The position numbers and the translations under genes were made by a program. Below, in pieces: positions 1,187 through 39,006 of a stretch of 39,994 nt of DNA (its first letter is position 1; each line of letters begins with the position of its first letter). The stretch spans positions 1 to 39,994 of the IMG/VR virus record IMGVR_UViG_3300023500_000250. One strand, written 5' to 3'. The notes under the pieces were generated by a model that did not search any database, was not told the origin of the DNA, and saw only the letters and a program-made list of their open reading frames with translations. The DNA is from a virus.

Positions 1187-1224
1187 TCCTCGTGAAAATA
1201 AAAGAACTGACACTCTTGAGTTCA
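1187..1224 (-). promoter_or_regulatory. antisense target region around the ribosome-binding site of the BRO operon
   Basis: On the minus strand this leader carries TTGAACT (about 1223-1217) and, 25 bases later, TCACGAGG (1195-1188), which contains the Shine-Dalgarno sequence of the gene starting at 1180. Both are exact reverse complements of segments in the RNA at 1233-1304 (AGTTCAA and CCTCGTGA), in the order needed for antisense pairing. The complementarity is read directly; repression of translation is inferred from the C4 paradigm. Confidence 0.65.
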
Positions 1225-1232
1225 AACAAGGG

Positions 1233-1304
1233 TGACAGACTGCGCAGAGTTGAACTACCGCTCACGAGGGACGGCGCTCCGAAGAGCCTCTTTACAGCCT
1301 GTCA
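1233..1304 (-). ncRNA. C4-type antisense RNA
   Basis: A 72-nt element closed by TGACAG (1304-1299) and CTGTCA (1238-1233), with an internal GCTC-TTCG-GAGC hairpin. Its central segment contains CCTCGTGA and AGTTCAA, complementary to the ribosome-binding region of the next gene and also to an upstream leader at 1359-1379. A perfect TATAAT lies on the same strand at 1318-1313, which would place a start near 1305, right at the closing stem. The architecture (promoter, structured antisense RNA, then a coupled pair ending in an antirepressor-like gene) matches the C4 RNAs of P1/P7 and related prophages, which block antirepressor synthesis. Pairing is seen in the sequence; function is inferred. Confidence 0.7.
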
Positions 1305-1312
1305 TAAATTGA

Positions 1313-1328: not shown

Positions 1329-1380
1329 AAAAAAAGCGCTTCGATTGAGCGCCTTGCGCTCGTGAAATCAGGAGTTCAAA
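1329..1380 (-). terminator. attenuator-like leader: second antisense target joined to an intrinsic terminator
   Basis: Reading on the minus strand: TTTGAACTC, then TTTCACGAG, then two mutually exclusive hairpins. One is GAGCGC-AAG-GCGCTC (1361-1347). The other is GCGCT-loop-AGCGC (1352-1336), followed by seven T (1335-1329), which is a good intrinsic terminator. The first hairpin uses the bases needed for the terminator stem. The C4-type RNA can pair with TCACGAG (1365-1359), which would open the first hairpin and favour termination. Structures are read from sequence; the switching model is inference. Confidence 0.6.
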
Positions 1381-1410
1381 CCTGCCACTAGAATGTGCTA
1401 GTGAGATATA

Positions 1411-1439
1411 AAGATAATAGAACTTGTTTACAGTGTCAA
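1411..1439 (-). promoter_or_regulatory. sigma70-like promoter for the leader/BRO operon
   Basis: Perfect TTGACA (1439-1434), a 17-base spacer and TATCTT (1416-1411, 4 of 6) on the minus strand. A transcript starting near 1404 would first copy a CACTAG/CTAGTG hairpin (1402-1385) and then the attenuator-like leader. The -35 box lies inside the palindromic operator at 1424-1442. Confidence 0.55.
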
Positions 1440-1483: not shown

Positions 1484-2113
1484 ATGGATAATAATAAAAT
1501 AACGGGTTATAACGATCAACGCCTTAAGGATCGTGCTATTGATGAAATGATTGGCATGTGTAAAGTCGTTTTAATTGATGGCAGTGTTTCAACTGACGAG
1601 GCTATATTTTTACTTAACTGGCTTAATGCTAACCCAATAGTGTCTACTGATTGGTTTGGTAAGGATTTGTATGAAACATTGCTTCACTTTTTAAATGATG
1701 GTGTTATTTCTAGTGATGAAGAACTTAAACTTTTAAATATTTTAACCGATATCACTGGTCGATCTGAAGTAAACACGGATGGCATTAATGCGGCCACTAC
1801 CTTGCCACTTTGTAAAAACCCACCTAATAACATTACGCTAAAAAATAATAATTTTATTTTAACGGGTAATTTTGTTCGAATTAAAAGAAAGGACCTGGAA
1901 CGTTATATTAAAAAACTGGGTGGCGCTATTAAAAAAACACCCACGGGTACCACTGATTATTTAATAATTGGTGATGAGGGTAGTAGTGCTTGGATGCATT
2001 CGACGTTTGGACGAAAAATTGAAGTGGCGGTTGCTGTGCGTGAAAAAGGTCATTCAATCGCTATTATCAGTGAAGATCATTTTTTTAAGTGCATTGATAT
2101 TAATCGAATTTAA
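1484..2113 (+). CDS. TerB-like plus BRCT domain protein, accessory gene
   Basis: 209 aa from ATG 1484; the frame is open from 1424, but the extra N-terminus is an isoleucine run with no Shine-Dalgarno sequence. Residues about 12-92 resemble a TerB-like helical domain with two similar halves (LIDGSVSTDEA and LNDGVISSDEE, acidic loops that could bind metal). Residues about 117-205 are a BRCT domain (FILTGNF near its start, GG with IKKTPTGTTDYLIIG, then a conserved W region and a final helix). BRCT domains bind phosphopeptides, DNA ends or other BRCT domains. The gene is more AT-rich than the late genes, reads against them, and is followed 14 bases later by the PH-like gene. Function unknown; a lysogen-expressed role such as defence or superinfection exclusion is only a guess. 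Confidence 0.75.
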   Translation: MDNNKITGYNDQRLKDRAIDEMIGMCKVVLIDGSVSTDEAIFLLNWLNANPIVSTDWFGKDLYETLLHFLNDGVISSDEELKLLNILTDITGRSEVNTDGINAATTLPLCKNPPNNITLKNNNFILTGNFVRIKRKDLERYIKKLGGAIKKTPTGTTDYLIIGDEGSSAWMHSTFGRKIEVAVAVREKGHSIAIISEDHFFKCIDINRI

Positions 2114-2127
2114 TAAAGAAAATAGCA

Positions 2128-2646
2128 ATGAGTAAAGAATCAAAACATGTCAAAAATTTCAAAAAAAATCATTTAAAAACTAATGAAACTCTTGTTGCTT
2201 TTGGTGATGGTTATATTGGTGAAGCCATGGGTAGTGGTGATAAAAAGCAACAAAATGGTTCTTTAATGGTTAGTGAAGAACGTGTTATTTTTTATAAAAA
2301 AGGTCTATTTGGTGAAATATTAGAAACAATTCCTTTGAAAAGCATTACCTCTATTGAGCGTAAATCTAAGCTAGGTCATCAAAGCCTGCATATGCATACA
2401 TCACATGACTCTTTGCAGTTTAAGTCATTTGATAAAGCATCTATGCAAAATTTATATGAATGGATTGAAGAGTGTCGAGGTGCATCAGTTGATCAAAATC
2501 AATCGGTACCAGTAACGCCTGTTTCTCAAATAGTTGAGTTATCGCCCATTGAAAAAATTAAACAATTGGGTGAACTTAAAGAGGCGGGTGTTTTATCTAC
2601 TGAAGAATTTGAAAGTAAAAAAGCTGAATTGTTAGCTCAAATATAA
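2128..2646 (+). CDS. PH-like domain protein with C-terminal SHOCT motif
   Basis: 172 aa. Residues about 18-112 look like a bacterial PH domain (GSLMVSEERVIFYKKG, then IPLKSITSIERK, then LQFKSF and a final helix with YEWIEECR). The last 35 residues match the SHOCT pattern (PIEKIKQLGELKEAGVLS, then EEFESKKAELL), a short oligomerisation helix. There is no signal peptide or transmembrane segment, so it is cytoplasmic. It sits 14 bases after the TerB-BRCT gene, forming a two-gene unit, and converges on the late operon with only 9 bases between stops and no visible terminator. Domain calls are reasonably firm; the biological role is unknown. Confidence 0.75.
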   Translation: MSKESKHVKNFKKNHLKTNETLVAFGDGYIGEAMGSGDKKQQNGSLMVSEERVIFYKKGLFGEILETIPLKSITSIERKSKLGHQSLHMHTSHDSLQFKSFDKASMQNLYEWIEECRGASVDQNQSVPVTPVSQIVELSPIEKIKQLGELKEAGVLSTEEFESKKAELLAQI

Positions 2647-4277: not shown

Positions 4278-4803
4278 CGCTGTCTGACACCCAGTTTTCA
4301 AAATTTTGTAATACTTTTTCGGCACCACTGAGCACAATTTCAGGCTCTATTTCGCCACTGAGTACTGTTTTGGCAGCGGGCGAAATATCGGCCACTAGCT
4401 GTTTTTTTATGCGCTGTTCGACTAATTCGGGTATGGATTGCACCTCGATGAGTTTAAAGCTCACTCGCCACAATTCTAATGATTCGTCTTCTATGACTGA
4501 GACATCACCTTCAAACTTTACTTTGCGTACTTTCATCGCTGCCGTGGTGTCGTTTTTAACGCGATATATTTCACGGTTTCCGATGTTATTTTTAGCCTCT
4601 GCTAACACTACAATGTCGGTTAAATCATTGGCGTTAATAAATTTTATGAGACAATTAACGCTGATTTTTTTGGGCTTTTCGCCCGTTTCGGCACTGGCCG
4701 CCATGCTGGATGAACCGCTTAAATCGTCACCCGCACAGGTGAGTGACACCGACAGTTTTAAACTGCTGCCGTTAATTTTTTGGGCGTTTAAATGAAGGCT
4801 CAT
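4267..4803 (-). CDS. tail/baseplate complex protein
   Basis: 178 aa. It opens with MSLHLNAQKINGSSLKLS, continues with a beta-rich core around KISVNCLIKFINANDLTDI, and ends with an acidic helix. Its place between an unknown tail gene and the hub gene, with overlaps on both sides (ATGA at 4800-4803), points to a tail-tube terminator or baseplate adaptor of the gpU type. I cannot name the family with certainty. Confidence 0.6.
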   Translation of the reverse strand: MSLHLNAQKINGSSLKLSVSLTCAGDDLSGSSSMAASAETGEKPKKISVNCLIKFINANDLTDIVVLAEAKNNIGNREIYRVKNDTTAAMKVRKVKFEGDVSVIEDESLELWRVSFKLIEVQSIPELVEQRIKKQLVADISPAAKTVLSGEIEPEIVLSGAEKVLQNFENWVSDSDET

Positions 4804-5492
4804 GGCATTAACTCGGTTAAAAAACTTAAATCATTGGGCGTGCCGGCAAACGCTAAAATAGCGGTTAATGATTGCGTAGCGGTGGGGTGGCCCACGCGTA
4901 AATCGCTGGCGATATTGCCCTCTGAATAAAAGCGAAAACCACTGCCACCGCTCACCTGCTCGTCAATGGCTACATTAGCATCAAAGGCTGTTTTAGCAAT
5001 TTCAAAACTGTTTAAATGAGTTAAGGGGTCTGCACTGGCTAATGCCGCCGCATCGCTTAGAGCTTGCTGGCTGAGTGCTTTTTTATGAAACCGTGCCACC
5101 GTGGGAACGCTATGAATAAAGTGTGAGCGTTGCACGGGTTCGTGAGTCATTAAATTCATTTTATTGCTTTCGAGCTGTTCTAATTGCTCGGCTCGACGCT
5201 GCCATTGGTCTAATTGCTGCAATGGGAAACTAGCCGATAAATGAGCGCACGCTTTAGCAAAATCACGCAAGTTTGAGGCACTCACGGCCAGTGCAAAACA
5301 GGCCCCACCCGATAACACGGGCAGTTGATTAATGACCGCATCGATGGCCGCCGGAAAGCTGAGCAAAGTCACCGCGCCTTGCTTTTCGTTATGCTCAAAC
5401 ACCCACGGCGACACCGCAAACGTGAGCAGCTTGTGATTAACATTAAACGCACTGCTTGAAGGTGTGGCTAAGGTGAGGTTTGCCCAGCTCAT
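4800..5492 (-). CDS. hypothetical tail-region protein
   Basis: 230 aa. The first 100 residues are beta/alpha (LTLATPSS, LLTFAVSPWVFEH, ACFALAVSASNLRDFAKAC). The middle is a charged helix rich in Gln and Glu (about residues 115-155), and the C-terminus has a Gly-rich segment. Neither signal peptide nor membrane segment is present. It overlaps the next gene as ATGA, so it is translated as part of the baseplate block. Position suggests a DNA-circularisation-like or baseplate protein, but I do not recognise the sequence. Confidence 0.5.
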   Translation of the reverse strand: MSWANLTLATPSSSAFNVNHKLLTFAVSPWVFEHNEKQGAVTLLSFPAAIDAVINQLPVLSGGACFALAVSASNLRDFAKACAHLSASFPLQQLDQWQRRAEQLEQLESNKMNLMTHEPVQRSHFIHSVPTVARFHKKALSQQALSDAAALASADPLTHLNSFEIAKTAFDANVAIDEQVSGGSGFRFYSEGNIASDLRVGHPTATQSLTAILAFAGTPNDLSFLTELMP

Positions 5493-5501
5493 TAGGGTTA
5501 A

Positions 5502-5852
5502 TTACACAAAAAACGCATTACGTTTTTGTGCAAACCATGTTGCAAACGCTGTAAAGTCTGCGGCTACCATCGGCAATACCTGACCATTAGAGAGCTTGAT
5601 ATTAGTCGATACCTCACCCATTTCAAAAGCTGCTTTAACTTGCAAAACGGCGAGTGCATCATGAGATTTAAAAGGCACTTTAATACCTGTGGCTAAGTAA
5701 AGTTCACCCTCTTTTTTTACTAGCAATAAAGCATAATCAGCTTTTACTTTGTCGTACTCAGCTTGTGTTAAAGAGTTGTCTGCTAACAAAGCGTCTAAAG
5801 CTTTATCATCAAAGTTTACATAGTTCTTGTTATTTGCTTTAAAATTATACAT
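5502..5852 (-). CDS. small protein behind the tail spike, possible fibre assembly factor
   Basis: 116 aa from ATG 5852, which has AAAGG at good spacing; the frame open to 5888 adds residues without support. The N-terminal half contains an acidic helical hairpin (DDKALDALLADNSLTQAEYD). The C-terminal half has a strand-helix pattern ending in FATWFAQKRNAFF, reminiscent of small domains attached to tail-fibre and fibre-assembly proteins. It lies directly after the putative spike gene, where fibre chaperones usually sit. Function is inferred from place only. Confidence 0.5.
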   Translation of the reverse strand: MYNFKANNKNYVNFDDKALDALLADNSLTQAEYDKVKADYALLLVKKEGELYLATGIKVPFKSHDALAVLQVKAAFEMGEVSTNIKLSNGQVLPMVAADFTAFATWFAQKRNAFFV

Positions 5853-32843: not shown

Positions 32844-35596
32844 ACGTTTTTTCCTATTGTGTTTTCAAATGTCCAGCACCGAACGCTTCTATTTTGTAAG
32901 CGTGAAGTCACCACTTCATTGCGTAAATATTTAGGTTTTCGACTGGTTTTTAGTTGTTGTCTTAATTCTTTAGGGTCAATCATGGGTAGGCCGTTATCAC
33001 GGCATAGGCTGTGAAAATGTTCTATATTGATTGAAATTAATTTGTCTTTTTGCACGTTATGATTGAGTAAAAACTCAATAGGCTGGGCGTATGGATCGCC
33101 GTTTTCTTTTGCTTTTGTATTGATGTATTCAAACTGGCTCCAAAAACGTCTCACAATTTCATGGTCTTCATTCAGTGTGCTTTGGCACTTTGTGGCCATG
33201 GTTAATAATTCGGCTTTAACTTGGTTTAGGGTGTCTTCGCTTATTTGCGGCAACACGCCTTTTAAACAGTCAGCAAACGCCATCATTTTTGCGTGGTTTT
33301 CAACAATGCGTTGCATTTTTATGTTTGGGTTTTTCTGCAACTCAGCCATGTGTTTTTTTAATTGCCTTGCAAAGTGTTTTAACACTCGGCTGCTTTGTTG
33401 CACCGCGTGCAAATAAAAGCCGCTTAACACTTTAATGGGCAACATGTTTAAACGGTCACTGGCTAATTTACCCGCCGCAGTGTGGTGGCTGGTGTCAAAC
33501 CACACGTGACAAAAGCGCGAAATCATCGCTTCGCTGGCGATAATGCGTGGGTTTTGAATGGCCATTAATGCGCCTTTAAATTTGGGCTTTTTGGTGCTGT
33601 TGTCTTGGCTTTTTATGCCCGTCACACGTCCAAACTCCCCATCAAACAAGTCTTTGTGCTCATCCCAATTAAACTTTTTAGCGTGTTTATCGGCGGCTAT
33701 GTCTTCATTGTCGGTCTCGTTAAACACCACGGGCATGTTGCTTACCTCGGCCATTTTGCGCGTGCGCCCTGCAAGGGTTGACGTAACAGGGTTAAAACTT
33801 TCACCATGCTTGCCCAGTAAATTCCATAAAAAATCAACAAGGTCAGACTTGCCACTGTTCGCCGGGCCAACCAACTCTAAATAAGGGTATGATCGGTAAT
33901 CATCACGCACTTGCTCGGCAAAAAAACTGCCAAACCACCACACCAACGCCACATACCCTTTAATGCCAAAAGCAGTGCTAAAGTCGGCAAGCCAATCGGC
34001 ATTAAAATCTGTGTTTAAAGTTTGTTTAATGTCTACCGTGGTTTTAATACCCGACTTTTTTAGCTGAAAAAACGACTCGGCATTAACTTTTAATAAAGTG
34101 CCCTGCTCTACAGCATATTCATTCATCACATACGTTTTAGTGGCTTTGTCATAGCCAATAAAATCAAGTGTCGTCACTACCTTGGGTTTATAACTAATCC
34201 AAGCGCGATACAGCTTATCCATATCTTTACCGCTGCCCGTAAATAAAGCCCCTGGCGCTTTATGCATGGCCGATTTTTTAAAGTCACCTGCAGCACTTAA
34301 CGTTTTACCCGCAAACGCCAATTGTTGGTCGGGCAGTTGGTTAGAAAACCGAAAGCGAAAAAAGTATTGTCCATCTTCGTCGTTGTCGGGCTGTTGAAAA
34401 TACAAAAACCGCATATCAAACGTAGCAATCTCTGTTATTTTGCAGGCTTGGCCAAAAGCTTGCTCTTTCGCTTCTTTGTTTTCATCATCACTGCGTTTTG
34501 CAATTTCTTCTTTTAAAAATTGATCAGTCAGCATGTCGGGGTTATCAACACCTAAAACAGCCGTCCAATACGCTTTATAATGTTTGTCATAACTCGCTTT
34601 ATCCATGTTAAATCGATAAGTACGGTACTTATAATCAAACAAAAAATAACCAAGTGTTTGGTTAAACCACATTAATTGCGCTTTTATTTTATAACTCGGT
34701 GCCAGTTCCAAATCACCCAAATAGCGATAATGCTGTATGTCTGTTGTGCTTAGTTTTTTAGCCTTGTGCAAATCATTCCAATCTGCTTTTTCTTCACCCT
34801 CAGCGCTAATGGCCGCGCTTACCTTCTCGCCCATATCTCGCAAACGTTGTGCATGTTTTTGCAAACATTTGCGCCCTGTTACATCGTTATCCAATGCCAA
34901 CACCCAAGTAATGCCTTTGTTTAGATAAGGCTTAATCGCATCACTTGGGAAGGTGCCACTACTCATAATAGCCACGGCTTTAATGCCATTTAAGTTAAGC
35001 GCAATAGCGTCTAAAATGCCCTCGCAAAACCAAATTTCGTCATCTTTTTTAATGCGTAAATCGGTGGGCTTCCACCACATGCCTTTAAATGCACCTTTAA
35101 AATTTTTATTGCGCGTCTCAGTAGACCCCTCTTTAGTGATGTTAACGTCTTCAATAAAACGCTCCCACATCACGCTTTTATCACCACTTTTTTCAGTGGT
35201 TAAATAAAACCGAACCGTAGCCGTGCCTTTATCTGCACCGTTGCACCAAAATTTCCCTTGCTCATACCAACCTTTAATTTGGCTAATGTTAAAACCACGA
35301 ATAAGCGACAAATACTTATCGGCTGTGGCATTAGGCTGTTTTTCTGTCGGTGGATATTTTTCAGTTAAAACGACAAAAACCTCCGGAAACAAACTTTTAG
35401 ACGTATCCACAAAACCGCACTTGTTGGTGCGATCACACTGAATTTGCCCGGGGCTATGCGCCCAAGTCCATAACGTTTTTTTGCTGCAATCAGGGCAAAC
35501 GCCAGCGCGTAAAGAACGGCCATCTTTAGACAATTTCATGCCAAACTTTTGCTCAAGTTTGCTAATAATCTGCGGTACTAAATCTTGTCTTTCCAT
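32840..35596 (-). CDS. phage primase-helicase (zinc finger, Toprim, P-loop)
   Basis: 918 aa. A zinc-binding motif with Cys 34, 37, 54 and 60 opens the protein. The Toprim domain follows with WFCEGILDAIAL (Glu 192) and ALDND (Asp 236, 238). A helicase-type P-loop, GPANSGKS, is at 577-584. This is the arrangement of large phage or plasmid primase-helicases such as gp4/alpha-like proteins, and it should start and unwind DNA during lytic replication. No obvious ribosome site precedes ATG 35596. It is the main replication gene of the prophage; no P2 A-type nicking protein is seen in the window. Confidence 0.9.
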   Translation of the reverse strand: MERQDLVPQIISKLEQKFGMKLSKDGRSLRAGVCPDCSKKTLWTWAHSPGQIQCDRTNKCGFVDTSKSLFPEVFVVLTEKYPPTEKQPNATADKYLSLIRGFNISQIKGWYEQGKFWCNGADKGTATVRFYLTTEKSGDKSVMWERFIEDVNITKEGSTETRNKNFKGAFKGMWWKPTDLRIKKDDEIWFCEGILDAIALNLNGIKAVAIMSSGTFPSDAIKPYLNKGITWVLALDNDVTGRKCLQKHAQRLRDMGEKVSAAISAEGEEKADWNDLHKAKKLSTTDIQHYRYLGDLELAPSYKIKAQLMWFNQTLGYFLFDYKYRTYRFNMDKASYDKHYKAYWTAVLGVDNPDMLTDQFLKEEIAKRSDDENKEAKEQAFGQACKITEIATFDMRFLYFQQPDNDEDGQYFFRFRFSNQLPDQQLAFAGKTLSAAGDFKKSAMHKAPGALFTGSGKDMDKLYRAWISYKPKVVTTLDFIGYDKATKTYVMNEYAVEQGTLLKVNAESFFQLKKSGIKTTVDIKQTLNTDFNADWLADFSTAFGIKGYVALVWWFGSFFAEQVRDDYRSYPYLELVGPANSGKSDLVDFLWNLLGKHGESFNPVTSTLAGRTRKMAEVSNMPVVFNETDNEDIAADKHAKKFNWDEHKDLFDGEFGRVTGIKSQDNSTKKPKFKGALMAIQNPRIIASEAMISRFCHVWFDTSHHTAAGKLASDRLNMLPIKVLSGFYLHAVQQSSRVLKHFARQLKKHMAELQKNPNIKMQRIVENHAKMMAFADCLKGVLPQISEDTLNQVKAELLTMATKCQSTLNEDHEIVRRFWSQFEYINTKAKENGDPYAQPIEFLLNHNVQKDKLISINIEHFHSLCRDNGLPMIDPKELRQQLKTSRKPKYLRNEVVTSRLQNRSVRCWTFENTIGKNV

Positions 35597-36368: not shown

Positions 36369-36405
36369 TGTTTACAGGGTCTTTAATAATTAACAGTGTA
36401 AACAA
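36369..36405. promoter_or_regulatory. operator region between repressor and early operon
   Basis: Two related sites: TGTTTACAG (36369-36377), and CAGTGTAAACAA (36394-36405), which reads TTGTTTACACTG on the other strand and continues as TGTTAATTA, giving a palindrome like that at 1424-1442. They lie between the divergent starts 36348 and 36420. Confidence 0.65.
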
Positions 36406-36419
36406 TAGCACTTAATATC

Positions 36420-36839
36420 ATGGCAAACAACGTAAAATCAGGTGAAATAATACGCTTAAAGCTTTTTATCGAGCAAAATAACCTTCAACTTATTGATATT
36501 TCTAATAAATTATCCATTACAGAACGATCAATAAAAAATATTATTTATGAAAATTTACCCTTAAGTGGGAAGATTTTGCGCTTATTACACCTACATTATG
36601 GGTTATCAATGGATTGGATTGTGTCAGGAACAGGCAGAATGATGATATTTGAGGATGAAATAAATGAAGAACAAGCAATATATGAAGTGAATAACAATGA
36701 TCGAGCAACACGCATAAAAGCATTTATTGATGATTACATGAGTTATGCCACCGAAGATGAAAAAGCATGGCTAGAAATTGAACTTGAAATAAAAATCAGA
36801 CAATACCGCTCATTTAAAGAAGATTATTCACTTAAATAA
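36420..36839 (+). CDS. CI-like phage repressor, HTH
   Basis: 139 aa. N-terminal HTH about residues 20-60 (LQLIDISNKLSITERSIKNI), followed by LRLLHLHYGLSMDWIVSGTG, a sequence typical of CI repressors of P2/HP1-like and related prophages. The C-terminus is a short acidic helical region with no peptidase domain, so cleavage by RecA-stimulated autoproteolysis is unlikely and antirepression is the more likely route of induction. No Shine-Dalgarno sequence is visible before the ATG, so it may be leaderless. Confidence 0.85.
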   Translation: MANNVKSGEIIRLKLFIEQNNLQLIDISNKLSITERSIKNIIYENLPLSGKILRLLHLHYGLSMDWIVSGTGRMMIFEDEINEEQAIYEVNNNDRATRIKAFIDDYMSYATEDEKAWLEIELEIKIRQYRSFKEDYSLK

Positions 36840-37290: not shown

Positions 37291-38307
37291 GTGACTGTAA
37301 AGAAACAACAAAATGGCAAATGGCTGTGTCAAATCGATAGAAAAAACATGCAGCGTGTTAGAAAAAGTTTTGACACTCAAATAGAGGCCGAAATATTCGA
37401 GCGAGAAACATTTGCCAACAATCGTATTAAGAAATTACAAAACACTGACCCTAGACATTTATCAGAGCTTATTTCGCTTTGGTACAAATATCATGGCATT
37501 AATTTAGCCGATGGTGAAAAAATGAGAAATAGGCTTAATGATGTATCAAAGGCACTCAATAACCCTAAAGCCAGCTCGATCACCCCCGAACAGTTTGTAA
37601 ATTATCGAGCCAACAGAATAAGCAAAGGCTTAAACTCAAAAACATTCAACAATCATCATGGCTATTTATCTGCAATGTATAACAAACTCAGAAAGTTAAA
37701 AGTCATTGATTACAATAACCCAGTGGGTGACATAGACTTTATAAAGATCCAGCAACGCATGTTGTCTTATCTATCAATCAATCAAATAAACACACTGTTA
37801 AACAGCATACAACAAGGCTGTGACAACAAATCCACATGGTTCGTCACTCAAATATGCTTAAGAACGGGGGCAAGATGGGGAGAGGCCGAACAGCTAAAAA
37901 GAAAACAAATTCACAACAACTCCGTCACGTTTGAATTCACAAAATCAAAAAAAATAAGAACCGTTCCATTAGATGAAGACTTTTTAAAACAACTAAAAAT
38001 ATTCATGGGCAATAAAACTCCCGAACAAAGAATATTTACAAACTGCATTGGAGCCTTTAGAAGAGCAGTCATAAGAGCAAAAATAGAATTACCAAAAGGC
38101 CAAAACACCCACATCTTAAGGCATTCATTCGCCAGCCATTTCATGATGAATGGCGGCAACATACTCACGCTACAAATAATATTAGGCCATTCCGACATCA
38201 GACAAACAATGAAATACGCGCACTTGGCACCCGATCACTTACTAGATGCTTTAATATTAAATCCAGTCGCCAGTTCGATTCCAAAACAAGGAACTAAACC
38301 CAAATAA
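37291..38307 (+). CDS. int: tyrosine recombinase integrase, P2-type
   Basis: 338 aa, GTG start with AAAGGAG at good spacing. N-terminal arm-binding region, then a SAM-like core-binding domain (about 50-150) and a catalytic domain with Arg 195 (TGARWGEA), His 274 and Arg 277 (HILRH), His 300 (LGHSD) and nucleophile Tyr 309 (MKYAHL). All five key residues are present, so it should be active. It inserts and, with an excisionase, removes the prophage at the att core 125 bases downstream. Confidence 0.93.
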   Translation: MTVKKQQNGKWLCQIDRKNMQRVRKSFDTQIEAEIFERETFANNRIKKLQNTDPRHLSELISLWYKYHGINLADGEKMRNRLNDVSKALNNPKASSITPEQFVNYRANRISKGLNSKTFNNHHGYLSAMYNKLRKLKVIDYNNPVGDIDFIKIQQRMLSYLSINQINTLLNSIQQGCDNKSTWFVTQICLRTGARWGEAEQLKRKQIHNNSVTFEFTKSKKIRTVPLDEDFLKQLKIFMGNKTPEQRIFTNCIGAFRRAVIRAKIELPKGQNTHILRHSFASHFMMNGGNILTLQIILGHSDIRQTMKYAHLAPDHLLDALILNPVASSIPKQGTKPK

Positions 38308-38610: not shown

Positions 38611-39006
38611 ATGCCTTATATTGTTAAACCATTGACAAATACAGAAGTCAAACAATCTAAACCAAGAGAAAAGGTTTATGCTTTATCTGATGGTGATGGA
38701 CTTTCATTACGAGTTAAACCTAATGGATCTAAACTTTGGTTATTTAATTACACTGCTCCCTATACAAAAAAGCGAACGTGTTTAAGTTTTGCCTCCTATC
38801 CTGAACTTTCAATAGCCAATGCCCGCTGTAAACGCCAAAACGTTAGAGAACTACTTGCTAAGAATATTGACCCTAAAGAGCAAAGAGATGAAGAACTAAG
38901 AATTAAAGAAACAGGTAATCTTGAAGAGTGGTTAACAAAAATCATCGGTGCCGATACACGAGAAGCCGAAATCATTAAAAAAGTTCTGTCAGAAATATAC
39001 AAATAA
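38611..39006 (+). pseudogene. truncated P4-type integrase (N-terminal domain only)
   Basis: 131 aa. Residues 1-95 are the N-terminal arm-binding domain of P4/CP4-57-type integrases (YALSDGDGLSLRVKPNGSKL, WLFNY, TCLSFASYPELSIANAR, then NIDPKEQRDE). The core-binding and catalytic domains, some 280 residues, are absent; an unrelated short tail follows. The island can no longer move by itself. It directly follows the att core and terminator, so it used the same target gene as the prophage. Confidence 0.8.

Follow-up and report, generated by a model that had tools for sequence, protein, structure and literature searches.

The minus strand between positions 1442 and 165 of the window, by which we mean the whole 39,994-nucleotide stretch of viral DNA analysed here, carries a promoter, a leader, a structured RNA element and a pair of overlapping genes. 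The second gene of the pair (165-698) encodes a Bro-N protein of 177 amino acids, with a PF02498 match (E=3.8e-22) of 79.2 bits against a Pfam cut-off of 25.6, and its nearest PHROG families are those of the anti-repressor (7.7e-36). These matches suggest that the protein is an antirepressor, with the caution that some Bro-N proteins are not. The first gene (695-1180) encodes 161 amino acids and is joined to the Bro-N gene by an ATGA overlap, so that the coupling claimed in the original prediction is present.

The 161-aa gene occupies the position held by icd in phage P1. Comparison with P1 Icd gave E=0.027 over 45 residues, and hhalign gave a probability of 0.3% for D6 Icd; with no detectable similarity to either protein, homology with icd was ruled out, in agreement with the earlier description of the middle gene as unrelated. 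The protein has no match in Pfam or PHROG. Searching phages, plasmids, genome contigs and viral contigs with it returned only a spurious portal-like match (L002), and a DNA similarity search with the leader gave no useful match. Relatives of the gene are found in a viral contig (L005) and in a Piscirickettsiaceae sequence (L006), where they likewise overlap a Bro-N gene; this small gene family is uncharacterised. The L006 pair (4552-5540) has no C4 element, and its Bro-N frame is broken in pieces; it lies near two tRNA genes and appears to be a decayed module in a bacterial genome. Among annotated phages, the closest Bro-N protein (53%) belongs to L003, which has no C4.

Upstream of the gene pair, positions 1228-1309 (minus strand) match the Rfam C4 model (RF01695) from end to end (model positions 1-87), scoring 53 bits, above the curated gathering score (GA) of 45 that we used as a feature of membership, with E=1.4e-7 for the 40 kb window; C4 is the sole Rfam family above threshold there. 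The element folds with -32.3 kcal/mol (z=-3.6), and only 1 of 200 shuffles folds better. A C4-type antisense RNA, the kind of small RNA by which phage P1 is held dormant, had been proposed on the minus strand at 1233-1304, and the covariance search of this region, at 53 bits against a GA of 45, bears the proposal out. The 72-nt element as originally drawn is the mature RNA predicted by comparison with the annotated P1 c4, which would extend from about 1303 to 1232 (72 nt). Because transcription is predicted to start near 1404, the end at 1303/1305 would arise by processing, not by initiation at a promoter.

The two arms of the element, b' (CCTCGTGA, 1262-1269) and a' (AGTTCAA, 1250-1256), have exact complements in the leader of the 161-aa gene. 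The a' arm can form 7 bp with a2 (TTGAACT, 1219-1225) and the b' arm 8 bp with b2 (TCACGAGG, 1188-1195), the latter covering the Shine-Dalgarno sequence of the ATG at 1180; the exact complementarity claimed for both arms, ribosome site included, is therefore correct. The 7-nt and 8-nt matches occurred together in none of 20,000 shuffled leaders, which rules out chance complementarity, and none of the 63 leaders of other C4 loci carries both matches to the arms of the window.

A second pair of targets, which we counted as a feature of C4 membership alongside the covariance score and the arm-leader complementarity, is present upstream of the element: a1 (TTGAACT, 1373-1379) and b1 (TCACGAG, 1359-1365). 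Both lie in a leader (1329-1404, minus strand) composed of a 5' hairpin, a second hairpin with a1 in its loop, b1 and a terminator. This leader matches the IsrK model (RF01394) with E=2.6e-4 and 33 bits, where the gathering score is 50; its layout appears IsrK-like, and we do not assign it to the IsrK family. The Rfam model c4-a1b1 (RF03163) has no match in the window.

A sigma-70 promoter is predicted at 1411-1439 (minus strand; TTGACA at 1439-1434, a 17-nt spacer and TATCTT at 1416-1411; 10 of 12 consensus positions), placing the transcript start near 1404, where the IsrK match also begins. Its -35 box is covered by a palindromic candidate operator, TTGTTTACAGTGTCAACAA (1424-1442), whose half-site recurs at 36369-36383 and 36390-36404, between the candidate repressor gene and a divergent gene. 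With at most one mismatch the half-site gives three sites against 0.24 expected, a number that 0 of 100 shuffles reach; the case for the operator is built on these three sites in one genome. The adjacent gene (36420-36839, plus strand) encodes a helix-turn-helix (HTH) protein (HTH_19, E=2.9e-4, below the Pfam cut-off) that, judging by its position and these operators, is a candidate phage repressor and the probable target of the antirepressor. By analogy with C1 in P1, this repressor would govern the C4/Bro-N operon. The C4 reading given in the original prediction is supported, but it had overlooked a1/b1, the attenuator described below and the repressor operator.

Two genes lie beside the module on the opposite strand and look like accessory genes. 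One (1484-2113, plus strand) encodes a BRCT-domain protein of unknown function (phrog_3989), the other (2128-2646, plus strand) a protein with bacterial PH and SHOCT domains (phrog_2700). The window also has a phage integrase gene (37291-38307). A short ORF just beyond it (38611-39006, plus strand) resembles by eye the N-terminus of a second integrase and may be host DNA or a remnant.

Co-variation of C4 arms and their targets

A scan of 369 genomes detected C4 in 23, and with the addition of phage and viral loci we obtained 55 distinct C4 loci. Pairing was counted where an arm could form 6 or more consecutive Watson-Crick pairs with the RNA's own flanks or, for comparison, with mismatched ones. 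Across the 55 loci, cognate a'-a1, b'-b1, a'-a2 and b'-b2 pairing was found in 100, 96, 78 and 75%, compared with 18, 29, 13 and 22% for non-cognate partners, and none of 5000 partner permutations reached the cognate means. The arms vary widely among loci, and the targets have changed along with them. This family-wide co-variation shows that the arm-target pairings are under selection.

Since a search by gene order gave only 4 genomes, a held-out set was drawn from viral contigs by DNA pattern. In these 21 new viral loci cognate pairing at a1, b1, a2 and b2 reached 95, 76, 95 and 86%, against 18, 35, 13 and 45% for mismatched partners. The replication is clearest for a'-a1 and a'-a2; the mismatched rate is high for the b targets because b' generally complements a Shine-Dalgarno-like sequence.

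Several genomes carry more than one element. One (G263; L022, L036, L044, L047) holds six C4 cassettes in 1.5 Mb, four of them in tandem on one contig; their b' arms are nearly identical, and their a' arms are six different sequences, each matching its own a1 and a2. In another (G276; L042, L046, L050, L052, L056) a1/b1 pairing is kept and a2/b2 are mostly missing, and a long hairpin, GCTTGCCAGCCGGCG...CGCCGGCTGGCAATCC, stands between leader and C4 in the place of the terminator. Phage D6 has a second C4-like element (L063, 1064-1143; 40.2 bits, sub-threshold) about 500 bases upstream of its main C4.

Attenuator layout and proposed mechanism

In most leaders, a segment shortly before the terminator (arm 1) offers the terminator's 5' arm an alternative partner, and the resulting hairpin excludes the terminator. 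The P1 leader has antiterminator TGCGG-ACAA-CCGCA and terminator ACCGCAG-(10)-TTGCGGT. In the window the antiterminator is GAGCGC-AAG-GCGCTC (1347-1361, minus strand; -8.3 kcal/mol), and it is mutually exclusive with an intrinsic terminator, AAGGCGCT-(7)-AGCGCTTT followed by a T tail (1333-1355, minus strand; -8.6 kcal/mol). This antiterminator begins within b1, whose final 3 nt double as the opening 3 nt of arm 1.

An excluding antiterminator was found in 37 of the 53 loci that have a terminator (shuffles: mean 13.7, maximum 20). Although the search for arms ignored b1, in 33 of 36 loci the 3' end of b1 reaches 2-5 nt into arm 1. An antiterminator together with this overlap was thus seen 33 times against 4.9 in shuffled leaders, and 24 times against 3.1 when one locus was kept per sequence cluster. 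Arm 1 and the terminator arm also co-vary, giving 16 distinct complementary pairs. The perfect-stem test missed several loci with shorter stems, and a relaxed criterion anchored on b1 was set before the held-out test. It was passed by 39 of 48 testable loci (shuffles: mean 8.1, maximum 14) and by 11 of 17 testable loci in the held-out viral set (shuffles: mean 1.1, maximum 3). Four enterobacterial lambdoid loci (L061, L062, L064, L065) failed the attenuator test, showing that the layout is not universal.

Folding computed at equilibrium, not co-transcriptionally, predicted that occupation of b1 raises the mean probability of the terminator from 0.62 to 0.96, with control blocks at 0.63 on average. 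For the window the predicted probability rose from 0.59 in the free leader to 1.00 (a control block gave 0.76), and for P1 from 0.60 to 1.00. The overlap is small, C4 pairing with only 2-5 nt of arm 1. Four C4 loci of one genome (G369; L041, L043, L045, L051) lack cognate a2/b2 and have a1, b1 and the attenuator intact, which suggests that a1/b1 has a role of its own. On balance, layout and folding favour, with moderate confidence, attenuation in this operon, in which C4 would limit its own synthesis by acting at b1. With similar moderate confidence, we propose that, from P1 to this phage, C4 RNAs attenuate the operon that encodes them, acting through b1, the antiterminator and the intrinsic terminator upstream of c4.

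That a C4-type antisense-RNA immunity module controls this operon is very probable. Sequence statistics show that the element is a C4, that it has two pairs of targets which co-vary with its arms, and that two hairpins exclude each other in register with b1. From these we infer a course of events that takes in excision by RNase P, repression by C4, a termination switch, an active antirepressor and a repressor bound to its operator. Repressor bound at 1424-1442 would keep transcription low. A single promoter (1439-1411, minus strand) would serve the IsrK-like leader with a1/b1 and terminator, C4, and the 161-aa and Bro-N genes. Transcripts that escape repression would either stop at 1333, giving a short leader RNA, or continue past the terminator and give rise to C4, excised from the read-through transcript by RNase P. 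Pairing of a'/b' in the mature RNA with a2/b2 would cover the ribosome site of the 161-aa gene, and with this gene blocked Bro-N would be denied translational coupling. C4 would pair with a1/b1 as well; because b1 includes the first bases of the antiterminator, this would free arm 2 and allow the intrinsic terminator to form. By favouring the terminator, C4 would hold down transcription both of itself and of the antirepressor gene. Where C4 is scarce, as in a new infection, or is titrated by the short leader RNA, both locks would open; in a newly infected cell without C4, transcripts could read through and Bro-N could be made, which would then inactivate the repressor. Rho-dependent polarity is known for icd in P1, and by analogy it is plausible within an untranslated 161-aa gene.

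IsrK mutants of Gifsy-1 and other possible roles for a1/b1

Published genetics of Gifsy-1 can be read against this proposal. The C4 model matches Gifsy-1 (L121) at 34131-34214 (minus strand), just downstream of isrK (34240-34316, minus strand), and the match coincides with the position of STnc1160, a stable Salmonella RNA of about 80 nt (PMC4825925). With the start set at 34316, the numbering used in PMC4825925 fits all mutated bases that were checked. G28 and G31 (isrK G28A/G31A) fall in a1 (ATTGGCGTC), and C159 and C162 ('orf45' C162U/C159U) fall in the a' arm of C4 (TACGCCAAC). Expression of anrP was 4 units in the wild type, 484 and 926 units in the a' mutants, and 93 and 218 units in the a1 mutants, a 23- to 55-fold rise in translation (PMC4825925). 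Double mutants gave 224 and 327 units, a reduction of 2.2- and 2.8-fold relative to the single mutants in a' (PMC4825925), and we infer that they restore the pairing of C4 with a1 and not that with a2. IsrK supplied in trans raised transcription 8-fold and anrP translation 139-fold, and the trans activation of anrP was lost in a1 mutants of IsrK (PMC4825925).

In outline, these figures would agree with titration of C4 and loss of both locks. There is a misfit: single a1 mutants rise more than the 8-fold change in transcription alone would give. The authors themselves invoked intramolecular structure and an action of IsrK on orf45; a P4 CI-like termination role for STnc1160 was raised and not favoured, and constitutive expression of orf45' (STnc1160) did not stop IsrK-driven growth arrest (PMC4825925). 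The term 'c4 RNA' is absent from PMC4825925. The IsrK experiments may be taken as genetics of C4, which would bring together two strands of work left unconnected in the literature examined.

The trans activation of anrP and its loss in a1 mutants (PMC4825925) also support the possibility, to which we give some but lesser credence, that a1/b1 is a decoy: the terminated leader RNA would soak up C4 in trans and so relieve a2/b2, the overlap with the hairpin being incidental. The position of the Gifsy-1 C4 directly downstream of isrK fits such a role, as does the retention of a1/b1 in leaders without an attenuator, and decoy and attenuator roles are able to coexist. A decoy, however, leaves unexplained the reach of b1 by 2-5 nt into arm 1, seen in most leaders and again in the held-out set, and why titration of C4 raises transcription 8-fold; attenuation at b1 is the reading we prefer.

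We think it unlikely that a1/b1 serves instead as a cis partner of a'/b' in the unprocessed transcript, where it would hide C4 from processing or expose C4 to it in the manner of isrK-orf45 'structure A'. Native gels and compensatory mutants of Gifsy-1 do show a1-a' pairing within one long RNA (PMC4825925), and some G276 C4 loci keep 8-11 bp of a1/b1 pairing with neither a detected terminator nor a2/b2. Against this, a trans action of mature C4 is reported for P1/P7, as is high expression of C4 as a processed RNA in Acinetobacter (PMC12197685, PMC5320573), and pairing in cis predicts no constraint on the antiterminator-terminator layout. Finally, although loss does occur, as in the L006 gene pair, it is most improbable that the element of the window is a decayed remnant whose structure persists in an operon neither expressed nor repressed, since the window retains intact all four target sites, the promoter, the operator, both frames and the ATGA overlap, and its arms, though unlike the arms of relatives, still match their own targets.

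Relation to known systems and significance

The GenBank record of P1 annotates, in order, a1, b1, c4, a2, b2, icd and ant, with the C1 operator Oc4 at the promoter. The locus described here shares with the c4-icd-ant (immI) region of P1 and P7 the succession of a promoter with operator, a1/b1, c4, a2/b2, a small coupled gene and an antirepressor, as well as the placement of b2 beside the ribosome site; in P1, b1 also overlaps the antiterminator arm. It differs in having Bro-N where P1 and P7 have Ant1/Ant2, in the replacement of icd by the dissimilar 161-aa gene, and in belonging to a phage with its own integrase gene rather than to a plasmid prophage. Phage D6, which is P1-like, has the order isrK-C4-icd-antirepressor.

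An isrK leader and C4 stand directly before Bro-N in phiV10 and Moraxella phage Mcat4, and before an annotated antirepressor in Klebsiella ST11-OXA245phi3.2 and Enterobacter phage Tyrion; unlike in the window, the antirepressor gene of all four follows C4 with no small coupled gene intervening. Bro-N as a C4-controlled antirepressor is already known in sequenced phages. The original framing of the locus, in which Bro-N replaces Ant in the P1 logic, is accurate but less novel than it suggested, as C4 followed by Bro-N occurs in phiV10 and Mcat4. The viral contig L005 (IMG/VR 3300032253_000245) has an isrK-like leader, C4, the same small-gene family, the ATGA overlap and a Bro-N protein 79% identical, and it differs in its a' and b' arms, which have matching targets, and in a small gene of only 105 aa.

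The isrK/STnc1160/anrP region of Gifsy-1 has a1 in a hairpin loop, a terminator, read-through, C4 and an antirepressor downstream; there, in contrast, C4 faces the antirepressor's own ribosome site, and the antiterminator layout is weak. The CI RNA of P4, with seqA and seqC, is described as a processed RNA with targets up- and downstream of itself that brings about premature termination (PMC4825925), which would parallel the action proposed for C4; the layout and folding of C4 leaders support termination of this type at the upstream target. P4 CI differs in controlling replication genes.

The locus is one further C4-antirepressor module, and greater weight lies with the comparison across loci. 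Through it a1/b1, the site preceding C4, gains a specific, testable role, backed by co-variation and a held-out set; this attenuator is the part of the account that a specialist might not expect, and it was judged apart from the classical P1 c4 papers. The arms of C4 RNAs also constitute a set of naturally orthogonal antisense addresses. If true, attenuation at b1 would place the operon under negative feedback and lock the antirepressor a second time, would give a function to a1/b1, labelled only 'putative' in P1, and would unify C4, IsrK and P4 CI immunity.
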